Part shown: in pieces, positions 598 through 11,933 of the stretch | Layout: the number at the start of each line of letters is the position of its first letter | Numbering within the stretch: position 1 is the stretch's first letter | Position numbers and translations under genes: made by a program | NCBI GenBank assembly: GCA_012841065.1 | Contig: DUVI01000024.1 | Coordinates: forward strand, 1-60,941 | DNA from: Bacillota bacterium | GTDB taxonomy: Bacteria > Bacillota > Sulfobacillia > Fermentithermobacillales > Fermentithermobacillaceae | Reading direction: 5' to 3' | Length of the DNA: 60,941 nt | The notes under the pieces: model-generated | What the model was told of the DNA's origin: nothing | Database searches by the model: none | Seen by the model: only the letters and a program-made list of their open reading frames with translations

Positions 598-822
598 AAG
601 AGAACGTGGATCAGCGATGGTGTATACAGAGAAGGAAAGCCGTGGCTGAGAGCTTTCCATACACGGTAGCTGGTTGAATTCGCTCCGGAGCCCTCGGGCT
701 GAAAATACCAAGTAGGTCCGGCGCGTCTTTGCGTTATGAAGAACAAGAGCGGGCCATATGGGCCAACCACGGTGGTACCGCGGAGGCTTAAGCTTTCGTC
801 CGAGGAGACGAAGGCTTTTTTA
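598..822 (+). promoter_or_regulatory. T-box riboswitch, phenylalanine specificity
   Basis: The leader senses uncharged tRNA and lets transcription run into pheST only when tRNA-Phe is not aminoacylated. The T-box core GGTGGTACCGCG is at 771-782; its TGGT can pair with the ACCA 3' end of tRNA-Phe. The stem I region contains an AGAGAA-type bulge near 634-641. The sequence GAATTCGCTCCGGAG (676-690) fits the usual specifier-loop context, giving TTC (679-681) as specifier codon, which is a Phe codon and agrees with the downstream genes. The element ends in an intrinsic terminator (790-822). Boundaries of stem I are approximate. Confidence 0.9.
790..822 (+). terminator. Intrinsic terminator of the pheS T-box
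   Basis: An 11-bp stem with one G-T pair (790-800 with 807-817, AAGCTTTCGTC against GACGAAGGCTT) closes a six-base loop and runs into a T tract at 816-821. The T-box core lies directly upstream, so this is the off-state structure of the riboswitch. Confidence 0.9.
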
Positions 823-852
823 TTTGTGCATGGAAGGGAGGCACAAGACGCC

Positions 853-1917: not shown

Positions 1918-4368
1918 ATGAAAGTACCGTGGACATGGCTTAACGAATACGTTGATTTGCCGTGGGAAACCCAGGAGGCAGCGGATCGCCTGACCATGGC
2001 AGGCTTATGTGTCGAGGAGATCAGATATGAAAAGCTTGATATATCCTCGGTGGTTTCGGCCAAGATTCTTGACGTAAAACCCCATCCCACAAAACCCGGC
2101 CAAAAGATTGGCCTTGTGGACACAGGTACTGGGGAGTTTCAAATAGTGAGCGGGGCTCCTGGCTTTGCGAAAGGCAACATCATCCTGGTAGCCCTGCCTG
2201 GCGCCACTCTTCCCGGCGGGCTTAAGATTGAGCCCAGGGGATTGGACGGTGTAGTATCACAAGGAATGGCGGTTTGCTCCAATGAATTGTTGAACGGGCA
2301 GCCTCCAAGACCGTTTGAAGACATTATTCTTCTGCCACCGGGTACCGCCTTGGGCGTTTCCGCGGGACAGCTGTTTGAAATTGACGACTGGGTGATGGAG
2401 CTTGATCTCACTATCAACTATTCCCATTGCCTAGGGATTCTCGGAGTGGCGATGGAAGCGGCTGCACTGGCGAAAAGGCCCCTTAAACTGCCCAAAGTGC
2501 TTGAAGCGTGGAGTTGGGCGGGAACCTATGGGAGTATTAAACCAGAATCATATGACGAGGGAGCGCCAGATTTCAAAATTGACCTGCCTGAGCCTGAACT
2601 CTGCCCAAGATACGTGGGCAAGATCGTGGAAAACGTAAGGTTTGCGTATTCACCCGTAAACATCGAAAGGCGCCTTCAGCTGGCAGGGCAAAGACCCCTT
2701 AACCTGGTTGTGGACGTAACCAACTACGTCATGCTGGAGACAGGCCAACCGCTACATGCGTTTGATGCAGACCGGATAGCAGGAAACACTATTATCGTGA
2801 GATCATCAAAGCCCGGGGAAACAATTCTGACCCTTGATGATGCTGAAAGGGAGTTACCTGAAAACACCATACTGATTACCGATGCATCAGGTCCCATAGG
2901 CGTTGCAGGGGTAATGGGCGGCAACACCACTGAAGTAACTGAAGATACCAAGCGTGTGCTCATCGAATCTGCATATTTTGACCCTCTCACGGTAAGGCTT
3001 GCATCTCAGAAACTCAAGCTCAGGACCGAAGCTGCCCTCAGGTTTGAAAAAGGCGTAGACCCCACTGCCCAGGCAGCGGTGGCAGAAAGGGCCGCAGATC
3101 TTATAGCCCGATTCTCAGGAGGGACGCCGGTTTCCGGGTATGCTGAAACCAATCATCTGAATGTGGAGCCGAAACGGATCGTCCTTCATATGCGGACTGT
3201 GGAAAGACTGCTTGGAGAAACATTTTCGCCTGCAACATGCCGTGAGATCCTCGAAAGGATCAACTTCCAGGTTGAAGAAAGCAATGCTGATACCCAAGAA
3301 GCCATCGCTGTGACAGTGCCTCCCAGGCGTGTGGATATCCACGAGGAAGTGGACCTTGTAGAGGAAGTAGCAAGGCATTACGGATATGACAGTTTTGGGA
3401 CCGGAGATCTCTCCAAGGCCGTTCCCGGGGGCCTAACCGACCCGGACCTCCTTTGCGTGGACAGAATCCGGGATTTCCTCGTGTCCCACGGCGGGCTGGA
3501 ATGTATCACCAACTCCCTTGTGAATCCTGAGCACCTGGCCTGCCTGGGGTGGGAGTCAGACGATCCAAGGGGAAACCCTGTACGTCTCAAGCACCCGTTG
3601 TCATCTGAAGAATCAGTGCTGCGCACCAGCCTCTTGCCAGGGCTTATTGGGGTGGCTGCTTCAAACATAAGGTTCGGCATACAGGGGCTTTTCATATGGG
3701 AAACAGGGAGGGTTTTCTTCCCGGCGGCAGACCGGCTGCCCATTGAAACAAGGCAGATTGGTTTGGTTTCGTACGGCCGCCTTAAGCCCAAGACGTGGCT
3801 GGGCGGGCCGGAAGAGTCCGGTTTCTACCGTATGAAGGGAGTCGTAGACAGCCTTATGGATCTGCTCGGGATATCTGATGTGAGCTACTTGCCCAAGGCA
3901 GGTATGCCGTTCCATCCTGGAAGATCAGCCAAAATCGTGGCTAACATGTCGACTGTAGGCGAAATCGGGGACTTGCACCCTGTGTGCCTAAAACATCTGG
4001 ATATTCCCGTGCCTGTTACTGCATGCTGGCTTTCCCTGGAAGCTTTGTTAGCGGTGGTGAAACCGAAAGAGTATGCGAGTCTTTCCAAGTTCATGCCCGT
4101 GGAACGGGATTTGGCGGTGATTGTACCCGAGGAAGTCTCCGGCGGCGACGTAATTGATTCCATCCGCAAGGTAGGCAGGCATTTGGCCTCGGTAATCTTG
4201 TTTGACATATGGCGGAAACCACCGGTTCCGGAAGGGCATAAGAGCCTTGCATTCAGGCTCCTATACCAGCCGCAAGACAAGACTCTGACAGAGGAAGAAC
4301 TGGCAGAGGACAGGGAAAGGATCTTGGAGGAATTGCGGCAAAGATACAACGCCGTGCTGAGGTCCTGA
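1918..4368 (+). CDS. pheT: Phenylalanyl-tRNA synthetase beta subunit
   Basis: The 816-aa beta subunit supplies tRNA binding and editing to the PheST tetramer. Domains in order: an OB-fold tRNA-binding domain (about residues 40-150, VVSAKILDVKPHPTKPGQ and GVVSQGMAVCSNEL), B3/B4 editing domain (about 210-400, VVDVTNYVMLETGQPLHAFD and GVAGVMGG), B5 (about 405-480), the catalytic-like core (EEVARHYGYD and SSEESVLRTSLLPGL), and a C-terminal FDX-ACB anticodon-binding domain (SKFMPVERDLAVIV to the end). Length is slightly above the usual 800. ATG 1918 is preceded by GGGAGG. Only three bases separate its stop from polX, so the two are likely co-transcribed. Confidence 0.97.
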   Translation: MKVPWTWLNEYVDLPWETQEAADRLTMAGLCVEEIRYEKLDISSVVSAKILDVKPHPTKPGQKIGLVDTGTGEFQIVSGAPGFAKGNIILVALPGATLPGGLKIEPRGLDGVVSQGMAVCSNELLNGQPPRPFEDIILLPPGTALGVSAGQLFEIDDWVMELDLTINYSHCLGILGVAMEAAALAKRPLKLPKVLEAWSWAGTYGSIKPESYDEGAPDFKIDLPEPELCPRYVGKIVENVRFAYSPVNIERRLQLAGQRPLNLVVDVTNYVMLETGQPLHAFDADRIAGNTIIVRSSKPGETILTLDDAERELPENTILITDASGPIGVAGVMGGNTTEVTEDTKRVLIESAYFDPLTVRLASQKLKLRTEAALRFEKGVDPTAQAAVAERAADLIARFSGGTPVSGYAETNHLNVEPKRIVLHMRTVERLLGETFSPATCREILERINFQVEESNADTQEAIAVTVPPRRVDIHEEVDLVEEVARHYGYDSFGTGDLSKAVPGGLTDPDLLCVDRIRDFLVSHGGLECITNSLVNPEHLACLGWESDDPRGNPVRLKHPLSSEESVLRTSLLPGLIGVAASNIRFGIQGLFIWETGRVFFPAADRLPIETRQIGLVSYGRLKPKTWLGGPEESGFYRMKGVVDSLMDLLGISDVSYLPKAGMPFHPGRSAKIVANMSTVGEIGDLHPVCLKHLDIPVPVTACWLSLEALLAVVKPKEYASLSKFMPVERDLAVIVPEEVSGGDVIDSIRKVGRHLASVILFDIWRKPPVPEGHKSLAFRLLYQPQDKTLTEEELAEDRERILEELRQRYNAVLRS

Positions 4369-4371
4369 GAA

Positions 4372-6111
4372 ATGCACAAATCTGAAATTGCTCACGTGCT
4401 CAGGATGATCGCGGGTTTATTGACACTCAAAGGAGAACCGGTGTTCAGGGTGCGGGCTTACGAAAGGGCAGCCCGCACCGTTGAGCACGGTGATTTCGAC
4501 TTGGAGGCCTTGGCCAGGGAAGGAAAGCTGATCGAAATCCCGGGAATCGGCAAGAACCTTGCGTCTAAGATACATGAACTCGTTACAACGGGAACTTCCG
4601 CTTACCTTCAAGAACTGTCTAAAGAGGTGCCTATAGGCCTTCTGGATGTGGTCAACGTACCCGGAATAGGGCTGAGCACTGCGAGACTGCTTTACGAAAC
4701 CTTGGGAGTAAGTGATCTTAAGACCCTGGAACACGCCGTTGAGGCAAGGCTGATACAGACAGTGCCCGGCCTGGGCCCTAAGAGAGAAGCGATTATCAGG
4801 CGAGGTCTTAGCGAGGTAATGAAACATTGGGACAGGGTGCTGCTTGCACAGGCACTTCCGGTCGCTGAACACATCCTTGGCCTGTTTGCAAAGGCGGGTG
4901 TGCCCGGAGCCATCGTAGGCGAAACCAGGCGGGCCTTGGAAACTGTAGCTTCACTGGATATCTTGCTGGAAGCTGAGAGCAATGCCGGGCTCCTGGAGAA
5001 GTTCAAGACAATCGGTCTAGGTTACTTCAACTCCCAGGACCTGTGGGACAGCGCCTGGAACGGTGAAACACAAGCGTTTGTGCTCCCGTCGAACTTGGGA
5101 GTCCCCATGAAGGTTTGGGTTGTCCCACAGGACCGGTTCGGATGGAAACAGCTGCACCTCACCGGGCCGTCAAGCTTCTTGGGCTGGATACAGCAGTTGG
5201 CGGAATCCCAAGGGTATGATGTAGGTAAAGACGGCCTGACAAAAGAAGGAACACCGGTGCCGGCAGCTGGGGAAACACATATTTTCGAGATGCTAGGCAT
5301 CAGCTTCATACCTCCGGAGCTCCGCCACATGAGCGAATGTTGGCAGATGGCTCGGGATAACCGGACGGTTGAACCTGTCAAGCTTTCTGACATAAAGGGG
5401 GATCTCCACGTTCACTCTAACTGGTCTGACGGGCTTAACAGCATAGAACAGATGGTTCAGAAAGCCCTGGACCTGGGGTATTCCTATATTGCTATCACCG
5501 ATCATGCTACCAGGATAAAAGTGATAAACGGGCTGGACCCGGATAAGATCCAAGCTCAGATCCAGGAAATACAGATGGTGTCGCAGAAATACCCGCAGAT
5601 ACGTATCCTTTCAGGCGTTGAAGTGGATATCCTGAAAGACGGCAGTCTTGCCCTACCCGATGATATCCTTGCCAAGCTTGACATTGTCGTGGCTTCAATC
5701 CATCAGGGGCTGGACGGAGCAGGCAGGAGCATTGTTGACCGCCTGGTAAAGGCCGCTGCAAATCCTCATGTTGACATAATCGGCCATCCCACAGGCAGGC
5801 TCATAGGGCGCAGGCCCGGGAACCAGACGGATCTTGATGAACTGTTCAAAGTGGCGGCAGCCAACAACACGCTCCTGGAAATCAACGCATCTCCCGAACG
5901 GCTTGACCTTTCAGGAGAACTGGCAGCTGCAGCGCGGGGTTTTGGCGTAAGGTTTGCGGTGAGCACAGATGCCCACAGCACAAACGGAATGCATGACATG
6001 GCTCTCGGGATTGCCGCCTCGGCCAGGAGAGGAGGGCTTACGTCTGAATCCGTGGTCAACGCCCAGGACCTTGAAGATTGGTTCCCGCTAAAAGGACGTT
6101 CCGGTGACTAA
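4372..6111 (+). CDS. polX: PolX-family protein: degenerate polymerase X domain fused to an intact PHP phosphoesterase
   Basis: Bacterial PolX combines a family X DNA polymerase with a C-terminal PHP domain that has 3'-5' exonuclease and AP-endonuclease activity in base excision repair. At 579 aa the length is normal. Helix-hairpin-helix motifs are visible at about 53-62, 93-101 and 129-137. In the palm the canonical G-S-x-RR and D-x-D read GETRR (183-187) and S194-L-D196, and the third catalytic Asp, expected after G-x2-V, is Lys247 (GVPMKVWVV). The nucleotide-binding TGS-x2-HN motif is also lost (TGPSSFLGW). The PHP ligands are all present: H346, H348, D377-H378, E417, H444, H472, D533 and H535. 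The likely conclusion is a metal-dependent nuclease or phosphoesterase without polymerase activity. Confidence 0.9.
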   Translation: MHKSEIAHVLRMIAGLLTLKGEPVFRVRAYERAARTVEHGDFDLEALAREGKLIEIPGIGKNLASKIHELVTTGTSAYLQELSKEVPIGLLDVVNVPGIGLSTARLLYETLGVSDLKTLEHAVEARLIQTVPGLGPKREAIIRRGLSEVMKHWDRVLLAQALPVAEHILGLFAKAGVPGAIVGETRRALETVASLDILLEAESNAGLLEKFKTIGLGYFNSQDLWDSAWNGETQAFVLPSNLGVPMKVWVVPQDRFGWKQLHLTGPSSFLGWIQQLAESQGYDVGKDGLTKEGTPVPAAGETHIFEMLGISFIPPELRHMSECWQMARDNRTVEPVKLSDIKGDLHVHSNWSDGLNSIEQMVQKALDLGYSYIAITDHATRIKVINGLDPDKIQAQIQEIQMVSQKYPQIRILSGVEVDILKDGSLALPDDILAKLDIVVASIHQGLDGAGRSIVDRLVKAAANPHVDIIGHPTGRLIGRRPGNQTDLDELFKVAAANNTLLEINASPERLDLSGELAAAARGFGVRFAVSTDAHSTNGMHDMALGIAASARRGGLTSESVVNAQDLEDWFPLKGRSGD

Positions 6112-6237
6112 AGCAGCCGGGAGCAGTATCCTCGAACCTTCTTTCCATACACCCCTACAGGTAAGACAGCTTGTGTTCATAAATTCTTGAGCCCGTTCAT
6201 AGTCTACCTTGAGAATTTATGTGAAGGAGTGTCTCAG

Positions 6238-7191
6238 TTGCCAGGCAAAGCACGATTAAGACGCTCCCAGTCTGGCTTGTTGCTGGCCGTATTGGTTATT
6301 GCCCTGGCCGTGGGGCCTTCGGTGAAACATCAGGTCCCGGCAGCGCTCAAGTTCCATGAAACAGATGACCCGCTTCTCCCAGCAACTCCGCCCGTCACCC
6401 GGCATGACGTATACGACCTGAAGGTACGCCTTGAGCAACTTGGTTTTTACAGCGGACCTCTGGACGAAGTGTATGATGCTGAAACCGTGAATGTAGTAAA
6501 GGCATTTCAAAAAAGCTACTGGTTAGAACCTACCGGGATAGTGGACCAAACTACGTGGAAAGCGCTGGCTGTAGGGGTATCAAGACCAAGCCATGCTTCA
6601 TCAAAACCTCTGCCGGAAGGGGAAATCTACCTCGAAGTGGATACCGAAGTAGCTGAGCTGAGGGTATGGGTAGGGGACACCTTGTGGAAAACCTACCCAG
6701 TGGCCGTCGGCAAATGGGCGACTCTAACCCCGGTCGGGGAATGGAAGATCGTGGATAAGGGATACGAATCAGGCGGGGCTTTCGGAACCAGGTGGATGGC
6801 CCTTGACGTTCCCTGGGGAGGATATGGGATTCACGGGACCAACAGGCCCTGGTCAATCGGTACTTATGCAAGCCTGGGGTGTGTAAGGATGTTTAATGAG
6901 GATATCGAAGAACTGTACGAACTTGTACCCATAGGAACCAGGGTAGTCATTGTCGGGTACAGGCCTCCCCTTGATTTTGGCAAACCGTTTGGTCCTGGCA
7001 CTATCGGGCCTGAAGTAGTCAGGCTTCAAGAAGCGCTGCGTGAGTTCGGGTTTGATGCAGGCCCGAGCGACGGAAGGTACGGCCACCTCACAGAACGGGC
7101 TGTCCAAGAGGTCAGGGAAGTGTTCGGCCTGGGAAGAGAGGGATGGGCCTCGAGAGACATTTTTGTGTTGCTGCAAGTTGAGGGACAGTAG
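6238..7191 (+). CDS. L,D-transpeptidase (YkuD) flanked by two peptidoglycan-binding domains
   Basis: This secreted or membrane-anchored enzyme would make 3-3 cross-links in peptidoglycan through a catalytic Cys. A basic start followed by a hydrophobic segment (about residues 13-30) is a signal anchor. Next comes a PG_binding_1 domain (DLKVRLEQLGFYSGPLDE, about 55-110), the YkuD domain (about 125-245) with HGTNRPWSIG and the catalytic SLGCVRM, and a second PG-binding repeat at the C terminus (VVRLQEALREFGFDAGPSDG). TTG 6238 is chosen since GAAGGAG sits at 6222-6228 and the signal anchor follows; about 317 aa. A CATACACC at 6146-6153 resembles a SigE -10 but the -35 is poor. Spore-cortex or coat modification is a reasonable but unproven role. 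Confidence 0.9.
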   Translation: MPGKARLRRSQSGLLLAVLVIALAVGPSVKHQVPAALKFHETDDPLLPATPPVTRHDVYDLKVRLEQLGFYSGPLDEVYDAETVNVVKAFQKSYWLEPTGIVDQTTWKALAVGVSRPSHASSKPLPEGEIYLEVDTEVAELRVWVGDTLWKTYPVAVGKWATLTPVGEWKIVDKGYESGGAFGTRWMALDVPWGGYGIHGTNRPWSIGTYASLGCVRMFNEDIEELYELVPIGTRVVIVGYRPPLDFGKPFGPGTIGPEVVRLQEALREFGFDAGPSDGRYGHLTERAVQEVREVFGLGREGWASRDIFVLLQVEGQ

Positions 7192-9001: not shown

Positions 9002-9589
9002 ATGATGGGCTTTGACAGTGATTGGTTGAAAAGAGCAGGTTCTTTTGATGAATATCTGGAAAAGGCCGATATGAACGTGCCTACCATGAGACAAAACCTC
9101 GCTGAAGTCATTGTAAGCGATGAAGATCACACCTACTTTTCATGGCTGTGTTCCCAAAAGGTGCCTGGTTCGATAAAGGTCCTGGCCATTTCCGAGTCAT
9201 GGTGCGGGGACTGCGTAGAGAATTTGCCCGTTGTGGCCAAACTAGCTTCGCTTTATCCTTGCTTCCACCTGATGGTGTTTTCAAGGGATGACAATCTGGA
9301 TATCATGGACAAGTACCTGACAGACGGTAAGAGGACCATCCCGGTGTTTGTGTTCTTCGATGAAGCAGGAGAGGAGATCGGGCGCTTCATAGAAAGGCCG
9401 GAAGCTGCTACGGCATTTCTGAATCAGGAAATGTCCAAGTTCAATTACCTTCCTGAACAGGAAAGAAAGAAGGCATCTTACGGGGTGCGTACAAAGCTTA
9501 GAAAACTGTATAAGTCAAGATTCAGAAATGAAACCATAAGAGCGATTCGGAGGATTCTGGAAAACAGATATGGACCAAAAGACCCTTGA
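9002..9589 (+). CDS. Thioredoxin-like protein with CGDC motif
   Basis: The 195-aa protein belongs to the thioredoxin superfamily (family of YbbN-unlike, Bacillus thioredoxin-like stress proteins). It has the active-site sequence ESWCGDCVENLP at about residue 69, then the cis-proline segment RTIPVFVFFDEAGEEIGRF. No signal peptide or membrane helix is visible, so it should act in the cytosol on dithiol/disulfide exchange. The C-terminal 50 residues are basic and helical and lie outside the fold. ATG 9002 has GGAGG at 8991-8995; a TTG 30 bases upstream has no such site and overlaps DUF421. The 3' end overlaps mutS2 by 20 bases. Confidence 0.85.
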   Translation: MMGFDSDWLKRAGSFDEYLEKADMNVPTMRQNLAEVIVSDEDHTYFSWLCSQKVPGSIKVLAISESWCGDCVENLPVVAKLASLYPCFHLMVFSRDDNLDIMDKYLTDGKRTIPVFVFFDEAGEEIGRFIERPEAATAFLNQEMSKFNYLPEQERKKASYGVRTKLRKLYKSRFRNETIRAIRRILENRYGPKDP

Positions 9590-11933
9590 ACTCTTGGAAT
9601 ACCAAAAAATCCAGGAAATGCTTGCAGCCCAGGCTTCTACACCTATGGGGAGGAAACTTGCGAAAAAAGCATTTCCTGTTGATGTGTACATTGCAAGAGA
9701 CCGGCAAAGAACGGGGCGGGAGATCGCCGAAGCTCTGCTTCGAACATCTTTGCCCGCCATATCTCCGGTCAGGGACGTAACGAACAAGATATCAGGAGCG
9801 ATGCAAGGAGCTCAACTTGCACCACAGGATCTGCGTGATGTGCTTGATCTCCTGGTGGCCTGCGATACCATCTCTGCATGGATCGGGCGCCTTAGTGAGG
9901 ACTTTAGGAAACTCCATGAGTTAAGGCACAAGTTCCCAAACCAACCGTTGCTCAGGGACAAGCTTGCCAATACAGTTGATGAACAAGGCGAAATCAAAGA
10001 TACGGCCAGCCCCAAGCTTCAGTCTATCAGGAAGTCATACAGGGATGCTCAAGAAAGGCTCAGGAAACGGGCTGAAGAAATGACCCGTCAGCCCAGCATC
10101 GCTCAATACCTTCAGGAGCCAATAGTTACCTTTCGCAACGGAAGGTATGTGCTTCCGGTTAAACAAGAACACGCATCGAGAATACAAGGAATCGTGCATG
10201 ATCAATCGGCGTCGGGGCATACGGTCTTCCTCGAACCTTCTGAACTGCTTGAAATGGCAAACCAGGTAAGGCGGCTGGAACTTCTGGAACGGGACGAGAT
10301 TGAAAGGATCCTTACTGAAGTATCTGCGTGGATTGGTGAAGTCGGGTCAGACCTGCTTGACGCCATTGAAACATTGGGAGAGTTTGATCTGGGTGTAGCC
10401 AAAGCCAGGCTTGCCCGTAAATGGAATGGATGCTTCCCCACGCTTACAGACAGGTTCACCTTGTCCCTGGTTAAGGCATGGCATCCGCTTCTCAAGGAAA
10501 ATCCTGTTCCCCTTGATATACATCTGGACGAAGCAGGGGTAAGAACGATAGTCGTGACCGGGCCCAACATGGGCGGAAAGACCGTCTCTCTCAAAACTTG
10601 TGGCCTACTTGTCGCGATGGCACTAGCAGGAATGCCGTGCCCATGCGACCCGGAAACTCAAATCGGCGGCATTAGGGCAATCTTGTGCGATATAGGGGAC
10701 GAGCAATCCATTGAGGCAAATCTGAGTACCTTTTCGGCGCACATAACTAACATAAAGAGAATTGTGTCGCTGTCAGGCAGGGGTAAGCTGGTGCTTATCG
10801 ATGAACTTGGCGCCGGCACTGACCCAAAGGAAGGGTCGGCCCTGGCTCAAGCCATCCTAGAGAAAATCCACAATTCAGGTGCGTTATGCGTTGTCACCAG
10901 CCATTACGGCGAGCTCAAGATAATAGCTCAGAAAACCCAGGGAATGGCCAACGCAAGCATGGAGTGGGACAGTCTCAGAATGGTGCCCACGTTCAGGCTG
11001 GTGGTGGGAAGGCCGGGCAGATCCCACGCATTTCTGGTAGCTCGCAGGTTAGGTCTGGATGCGGATGTACTAGAGCGGGCCCGTGAATTGATCCCCGAAG
11101 ATGTAGTGAGATTGGAAGATGTTATTGCCGACATGGAGGCGCAATCGCAGAAGGCCAGAGAAGAGGCGGAAAAGGCTGCCATGGAGAGGGCGCTTTACGA
11201 GGAGTTACGCAGCGAGTATGAACATAGGTTAAGCAGCTTGGAGGCTCAACAGAAAAAGGTCCTGAAAGAGGCCAGGCAGGAGGCACAGTCGATAATTGCC
11301 AGGGCGAGAGTTGAATTCGAAAAGGCCCTAAAGGAGATCAAAGAGAGCCGCCGCCAGACGTCAGGAGAGTTCCATGCCAGTGCATCTGAGATCCGCACCA
11401 GGCTTGCGGGCATCCAGGCAGATCTGTCTGACGCAGAAGACGAGCTCCCCACGGGTGAGCCTTTGAGAGTTGAGAACCTGACAACAGGCATGCAGGTTCA
11501 GGTATCCGGGTTCTCAGAGCCGGGGACAGTATTGGAGGTTTCAGGGTCCGACGATGTGGTTGTGCAAGTAGGCAGCTTCAAGCTCAGAACCGAGATCAAC
11601 CGTCTGACCAAGGCCGCACTGGCATCCGGAAAGCATAAGGTCCCTTCCAAGACCGCCAGGAAGGAGCAAAACAAGGCGCTGAGCGTGTCCCACAAGGTAG
11701 ATTTACGGGGGATGACCAGGGAAGAGGCGCTTATGACCTTGGATAAGTATATTGATGATGCTTTCCTCGCTTCTATACCTGAAATCACGATTATCCATGG
11801 TAAAGGCACAGGTGCTTTGCGTAAAGCCGTGGAAGAGTATCTCCAATCAACGGAGAAATATATCGCCGGCTACCGTCTTGGACAACCATCTGAAGGCGGT
11901 GCCGGCGTTACTATTGCAAAACTGAAGACTTAG
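9570..11933 (+). CDS. mutS2: MutS2 ATPase/endonuclease with Smr domain
   Basis: The 787-aa protein has the usual MutS2 length and order: core/lever domains (about 1-310), the ABC-type ATPase (about 315-520) with Walker A GPNMGGKTVSLKT, Walker B LVLIDELGAGTDPKEG and the H-loop VTSHYGELK, a long coiled coil (about 520-640), a KOW-like region and a C-terminal Smr domain (VDLRGMTREEALMTLDKY, HGKGTGALRKAVEEYL). It lacks the mismatch-recognition domain of MutS. MutS2 is linked to suppression of recombination in some bacteria and to ribosome collision rescue in Bacillus subtilis. It converges on the PBP gene with only 10 bases between stop codons. Confidence 0.96.
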   Translation: MDQKTLELLEYQKIQEMLAAQASTPMGRKLAKKAFPVDVYIARDRQRTGREIAEALLRTSLPAISPVRDVTNKISGAMQGAQLAPQDLRDVLDLLVACDTISAWIGRLSEDFRKLHELRHKFPNQPLLRDKLANTVDEQGEIKDTASPKLQSIRKSYRDAQERLRKRAEEMTRQPSIAQYLQEPIVTFRNGRYVLPVKQEHASRIQGIVHDQSASGHTVFLEPSELLEMANQVRRLELLERDEIERILTEVSAWIGEVGSDLLDAIETLGEFDLGVAKARLARKWNGCFPTLTDRFTLSLVKAWHPLLKENPVPLDIHLDEAGVRTIVVTGPNMGGKTVSLKTCGLLVAMALAGMPCPCDPETQIGGIRAILCDIGDEQSIEANLSTFSAHITNIKRIVSLSGRGKLVLIDELGAGTDPKEGSALAQAILEKIHNSGALCVVTSHYGELKIIAQKTQGMANASMEWDSLRMVPTFRLVVGRPGRSHAFLVARRLGLDADVLERARELIPEDVVRLEDVIADMEAQSQKAREEAEKAAMERALYEELRSEYEHRLSSLEAQQKKVLKEARQEAQSIIARARVEFEKALKEIKESRRQTSGEFHASASEIRTRLAGIQADLSDAEDELPTGEPLRVENLTTGMQVQVSGFSEPGTVLEVSGSDDVVVQVGSFKLRTEINRLTKAALASGKHKVPSKTARKEQNKALSVSHKVDLRGMTREEALMTLDKYIDDAFLASIPEITIIHGKGTGALRKAVEEYLQSTEKYIAGYRLGQPSEGGAGVTIAKLKT

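Follow-up and report, generated by a model that had tools for sequence, protein, structure and literature searches.

The gene at positions 4372 to 6111 (+ strand) of the window, the 60,941-nucleotide stretch of Bacillota DNA analyzed here, very likely encodes a noncanonical family X DNA polymerase (PolX), a protein that would no longer add nucleotides while keeping its helix-hairpin-helix (HhH) domains and a metal-dependent PHP 3'-5' exonuclease or 3'-end phosphoesterase. We infer its lack of polymerase activity, its exonuclease activity, and its substrate in the cell from sequence. A first-pass annotation of this DNA had proposed the same split, with nucleotide addition lost, nuclease activity retained, and DNA bound through the HhH domains, and this stands as the best reading of the gene.

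The reading frame encodes 579 amino acids with no internal stops. NCBIfam PolX model NF006375 spans the whole protein (E = 1e-126), with a score of 423.9 bits that falls slightly short of the model cutoff of 426 bits. The nearest solved structures are those of Thermus thermophilus PolX (PDB 3AU2 and its mutants, E about 1e-95; 4e-95 for 3au2 itself) and Deinococcus radiodurans PolX (2W9M, E = 4e-79). Pfam, NCBIfam, and structure matches give a domain order of 8 kDa/HhH, palm/fingers/thumb, and C-terminal PHP. Along the + strand, these comprise an 8 kDa N-terminal domain with the first HhH (residues 1 to 75, positions 4372 to 4596; HHH_8, E = 7e-17), a second HhH region (residues 92 to 140, positions 4645 to 4791; HHH_5, E = 8e-10), a degenerate palm (about residues 166 to 255, positions 4867 to 5136), a region that matches Pfam DNA_pol_B_thumb and is termed fingers in PolX papers (residues 261 to 319, positions 5152 to 5328; E = 3e-12), and the Pfam PHP domain (residues 344 to 506, positions 5401 to 5889). 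The Pfam matches are HHH_8, HHH_5, DNA_pol_B_thumb, and PHP; no Pfam palm model matches the protein. K66 aligns with what we take to be the position of the dRP-lyase lysine (Pol beta K72), which is retained in 25 of 28 canonical and 43 of 52 noncanonical PolX proteins of the window's class. Relatives in named genomes were recovered by an alignment-based scan, a single-sequence scan having returned none. A second PolX, canonical ones included, was not found elsewhere in the Candidatus Fermentithermobacillaceae metagenome-assembled genome to which the window belongs as contig C3 and which is 81% complete.

The case against polymerase activity comes from the palm. Phmmer and MAFFT alignments with T. 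thermophilus PolX (3AU2) and 79 relatives from the class agree in placing S194, D196, and K247 of the window protein at D198, D200, and D243 of T. thermophilus PolX, such that D196 alone is kept of the three catalytic Asp or Glu residues required in a canonical palm. These are exactly the residues that the first-pass annotation had named, and the comparison with Thermus PolX that it proposed confirms that catalytic Asp positions are replaced. Its reading of the G-S-RR motif as GETRR is likewise borne out: GSARR at residues 187 to 191 of T. thermophilus PolX corresponds to GETRR at 183 to 187, a change of GS to GE. Its claim that the TGS...HN nucleotide motif is lost needs softening. The motif, YLTGSKAHS at residues 258 to 266 of T. 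thermophilus PolX and HLTGPSSFL at 262 to 270 of the window protein, within the Pfam thumb match, is degraded (TGSK..N to TGPS..L, with S replaced by P and HN by FL) but not wholly absent, since TG is kept; the hydrophobic L270 occupies the N279-equivalent position. The 11 residues that separate the invariant G-x-x-R-R anchor from the D-x-D position are the same in both proteins, and the palm has no deletion, with 87 residues filling the same alignment columns as the canonical 81. An AlphaFold model places strands 195 to 200 and 246 to 251 where both catalytic strands belong, the latter without an acidic residue, and its best Foldseek matches are T. thermophilus PolX (3b0x, E = 6e-38; 3au6, TM-score 0.77) and D. 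radiodurans PolX. The model was built from an eight-sequence alignment and has a mean pLDDT of 79.8, with the GETRR loop below 50; its support for the palm is at the level of fold and strand position. The S/D/K triad is not an assembly artifact, as five further family members show the S/A-D/E-K/R pattern, one of them from the complete, single-contig genome of Candidatus Fermentithermobacillus carboniphilus (L005/L102).

The PHP domain presents the opposite picture. As first proposed, all nine metal ligands are present (H346, H348, D377, H378, E417, H444, H472, D533, and H535), and the domain, taken C-terminally as far as about residue 570, also carries a basic DNA path. In Bacillus subtilis PolX, this path consists of R469, R474, N498, R503, and K545 and is needed for the PHP nuclease (PMC6616362); R476, R481, N505, R510, and R553 are the window counterparts, matched by motif rather than by aligning the B. 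subtilis sequence itself. One other position differs. F440 of B. subtilis PolX, the aromatic residue of motif III, is a predicted contact to the abasic (AP) site, and F440A severely affects all nucleolytic activities (PMC6616362). The window protein has L447 here, the position is aliphatic across the family, and it is nonaromatic in 9 of 28 canonical class members as well. Given L447, the AP endonuclease and perhaps the exonuclease activity of the window PolX may differ from those of the studied proteins. Overall, we consider the window PolX very probably polymerase-dead and nuclease-competent.

Patterns of divergence follow the same division. At equal PHP divergence (50 to 55% identity), palm sequences are on average 25% identical in noncanonical pairs and 38% in canonical ones, whereas HhH-region identity in the same pairs is 39% and 41%, respectively; the pairs in this comparison are not independent. 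Between the window gene and its nearest homologue, dN/dS is 0.15 over the whole gene, with values of 0.11 in PHP, 0.15 in the HhH region, and 0.28 in the palm, at a dS of about 1.3 that is near saturation. Purifying selection on the window PolX is strongest on PHP. The window protein is changed at eight HhH-region positions that are otherwise invariant across the family and its sister family (residues 26, 36, 37, 65, 101, 102, 152, and 159), versus one such change in the nearest homologue, a hint of relaxation.

Polymerase-dead PolX as a phenomenon is already published by Prostova et al. (NAR 2022, PMC9226535), who found 27.5% of 2,935 nonredundant prokaryotic PolX proteins to be noncanonical: their triads are altered (302 variants) and their dNTP motifs degraded, while PHP is conserved. 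The PolX proteins of D. radiodurans (triad AEE) and D. gobiensis (ARE) have no polymerase activity and a strong Mn2+-dependent 3'-5' exonuclease, which PHP mutations abolish in the D. radiodurans protein (PMC9226535). The window protein shows every obligatory sequence feature of this group, namely the domain order, triad replacement, dNTP-motif substitutions, and nine of nine PHP ligands, and it shares with D. radiodurans PolX an altered triad, degraded dNTP motifs, complete PHP ligands, and the 8 kDa/HhH region. The two differ in triad (S-D-K versus A-E-E) and at K66, which is Glu in D. radiodurans PolX. Deletions in the palm or fingers are common among noncanonical PolX proteins without being obligatory (PMC9226535); the window palm, in contrast, is slightly longer than the canonical one. 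Canonical PolX proteins (T. thermophilus 3AU2 and B. subtilis) share the domain architecture, the fold by Foldseek, and the PHP site with the window protein, but they keep the polymerase triad and nucleotide motifs, both of which the window PolX has lost. Its predicted activity can also be likened to that of PolX-type PHP nucleases without polymerase activity, although its palm is still present in degenerate form. Smaller separate noncanonical groups, many in Firmicutes, have been described (PMC9226535). Polymerase loss in the Bacillota lineage of the window is apparently separate from that in the main Bacteroidetes/Deinococcus cluster; D. radiodurans PolX, the sole main-cluster reference in our tree, falls apart from the window clade on a long branch.

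Whether a whole clade has lost polymerase activity was the question posed by the first-pass annotation. Judged by the catalytic sites in related genomes, including the five other family members, both the family and its sister family have done so, since all nine of their full-length PolX proteins are altered. The triads of the six full members of the family are SDK, SEK, SDK, SEK, SDR, and ADR, those of the sister family are QEG, REE, and QEE, and the nine form a clade with 100% support among PolX proteins of Bacillota classes, in a tree of 154 proteins from which palm and thumb columns were left out. PolX is present in 80 of 154 genomes from the window's class. At least one triad residue is nonacidic in 52 of these 80 proteins (65%), and all three acids are kept in 28; every one of the 80 has a complete set of the nine PHP ligands. 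The tree requires at least 11 state changes. If losses are treated as irreversible, it contains 12 altered clades, of which eight belong to the window's class; these counts are approximate given the weakly supported backbone of this quick tree. That losses were multiple follows from well-supported mixed pairs, such as an NDH beside a DDD PolX within one family (96% support). By locus coordinates, polX lies near pheS in many genomes, canonical and noncanonical alike, which argues for loss of the polymerase in place over import of a dead gene. Two class members (L063 in G041 and L064 in G044) have a D-D-N triad in an otherwise intact dNTP site (TGSKEHN and TGSVDHN, respectively), which may reflect polymerase loss at an early stage or else errors in the sequence.

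The position of the gene allows its fate to be followed in relatives. In the window, pheT (positions 1918 to 4368, +) ends 3 bp upstream of polX, an L,D-transpeptidase-like gene (ldt; 6187 to 7191, +) follows it, and mutS2 (9570 to 11933, +) lies farther downstream. Genomes of the family and sister family share the gene order pheS-pheT-polX-ldt-...-mutS2, with ldt absent from this place in G007 and G010, and pheT and ldt mark the polX slot in relatives; position near pheST is also common to the window gene and canonical class relatives. Three genomes of the window's genus lack a full gene in this slot. G001 (L031:8245-8413) and G002 (L032:8306-8419), the latter the sister species of the window genome, retain N-terminal polX relics of about 58 and 40 codons, frameshifted or stop-containing, between intact pheT and ldt; G004 (L179, about 5810 to 5900) has a clean deletion, with only about 20 bp between the two neighbors. 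In a second genus, no remnant was found at the locus in G005 and G009, and G011 has at most a doubtful trace (codons 9 to 34, E = 0.012). A tree of five neighboring genes groups the window genome with G002 (97/97) and G001 with G004 (100/99). Assuming that the window copy was inherited in place, as its locus position indicates, the genus accounts for no fewer than two losses of polX and the family as a whole for no fewer than three. Among class families with at least two genomes, those whose PolX is noncanonical lack it in 19 of 65 genomes, and those whose PolX is canonical lack it in 0 of 14 (Fisher p = 0.017). This difference is suggestive only, as members of one family are not independent samples and some genomes are incomplete. 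Polymerase loss could well be a stage that lineages repeatedly enter and leave only by losing polX itself, with some eight site deaths in the class, mostly in place near pheST, and dead-polymerase lineages losing the gene more often and leaving relics like that of the sister species, though we stop short of calling this probable.

Several side observations concern the same region. The listed start of pheS (window positions 736 to 850) is probably too early, most relatives aligning only from about residue 37 to 44. Some 116 bp (positions 6168 to 6283), reaching from upstream of ldt into its 5' end, are 87% identical in G004 and contain GGAG and TTG downstream of the listed ldt start, likely marking the true start and a promoter of its own. 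An Rfam scan of the window gave no match at the gathering threshold.

We considered whether the polymerase could still be active, with D196 and other acids such as E200 and E202 coordinating metal in a shifted register. One triad Asp is kept, an E-x-E lies six residues downstream, and an earlier report had credited D. radiodurans PolX with weak polymerase activity (cited in PMC9226535). Nevertheless, that activity was not reproduced, and the single substitution D203A killed the polymerase of B. subtilis PolX (PMC9226535). A register shift that rescues the acids through E200-A-E202 breaks the spacing from the GxxRR anchor, which is unchanged in the window protein; moreover, strand 246 to 251 lacks an acid, and Lys or Arg stands at its triad position in six of six family members. 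An active polymerase is accordingly highly improbable. The gene could instead be a pseudogene-in-waiting that retains no function in its own species, as might be suspected from its HhH-region changes and from three species of its genus, the sister species among them, that carry only relics or a clean deletion. The open reading frame is nonetheless full length, the nine PHP ligands and basic path are intact, PHP dN/dS is low, and the window PolX branch is not accelerated relative to neighboring genes in a rough comparison of two trees; we think it improbable that function has already gone.

Slightly less remote, though still unlikely, is that the window PolX serves as a dedicated partner in bacterial nonhomologous end joining (NHEJ), trimming 3' ends for Ku and LigD in place of the LigD nuclease domain. 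Altered PolX is frequent in Ku/LigD genomes (PMC9226535), the window's own genome has Ku and fragments of LigD polymerase, and a search of the family and sister family found no LigD nuclease domain. Co-occurrence does not support such a partnership: G003, G007, and G010 have PolX without Ku and LigD polymerase, six genomes (G001, G002, G004, G005, G009, and G011) have both NHEJ genes without PolX, and Ku frequency does not differ across the class (25/28 canonical, 41/52 noncanonical, and 59/74 without PolX). The presence of polX is not tied to Ku/LigD. Other family genomes keep both NHEJ genes, and their apparent absence from G003, G007, and G010 suggests that NHEJ itself has been lost in places within the family. 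Substitution for an absent AP endonuclease was likewise discarded as a general account of PolX: of 19 genomes, 18 carry nfo (endonuclease IV), with or without PolX, the exception being the window's own 81%-complete genome. With endonuclease IV in nearly all relatives, AP-site incision has a backup.

For a noncanonical PolX with an intact nuclease, we envision that the 8 kDa/HhH domains would bind gapped or broken DNA and that the PHP site would trim 3' ends that are blocked, damaged, or mismatched, after which other polymerases would carry out synthesis, with the gene presumably inherited vertically within the pheST-mutS2 cluster. Such trimming would be a general function, useful yet dispensable; that close relatives have lost polX outright more than once shows that the cell can do without it. 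A 2026 survey found the polymerase site kept in 75% of PolX1 proteins and PHP in 95% (PMC12926913). That the nuclease is the more strongly conserved activity of bacterial PolX is confirmed here in an independent, little-studied Bacillota lineage, in which the proposal that dead PolX serves NHEJ is weakened. To what was known, this analysis adds the class-level frequency of altered sites, uncoupling from NHEJ, and a whole bacterial family whose PolX proteins appear to be dead polymerases and several of whose members' close relatives have since lost the gene. It also adds a fine-grained decay series at one conserved locus, running from live polymerase through dead polymerase with intact nuclease to relic and clean deletion, and with it material for working out the order of loss.
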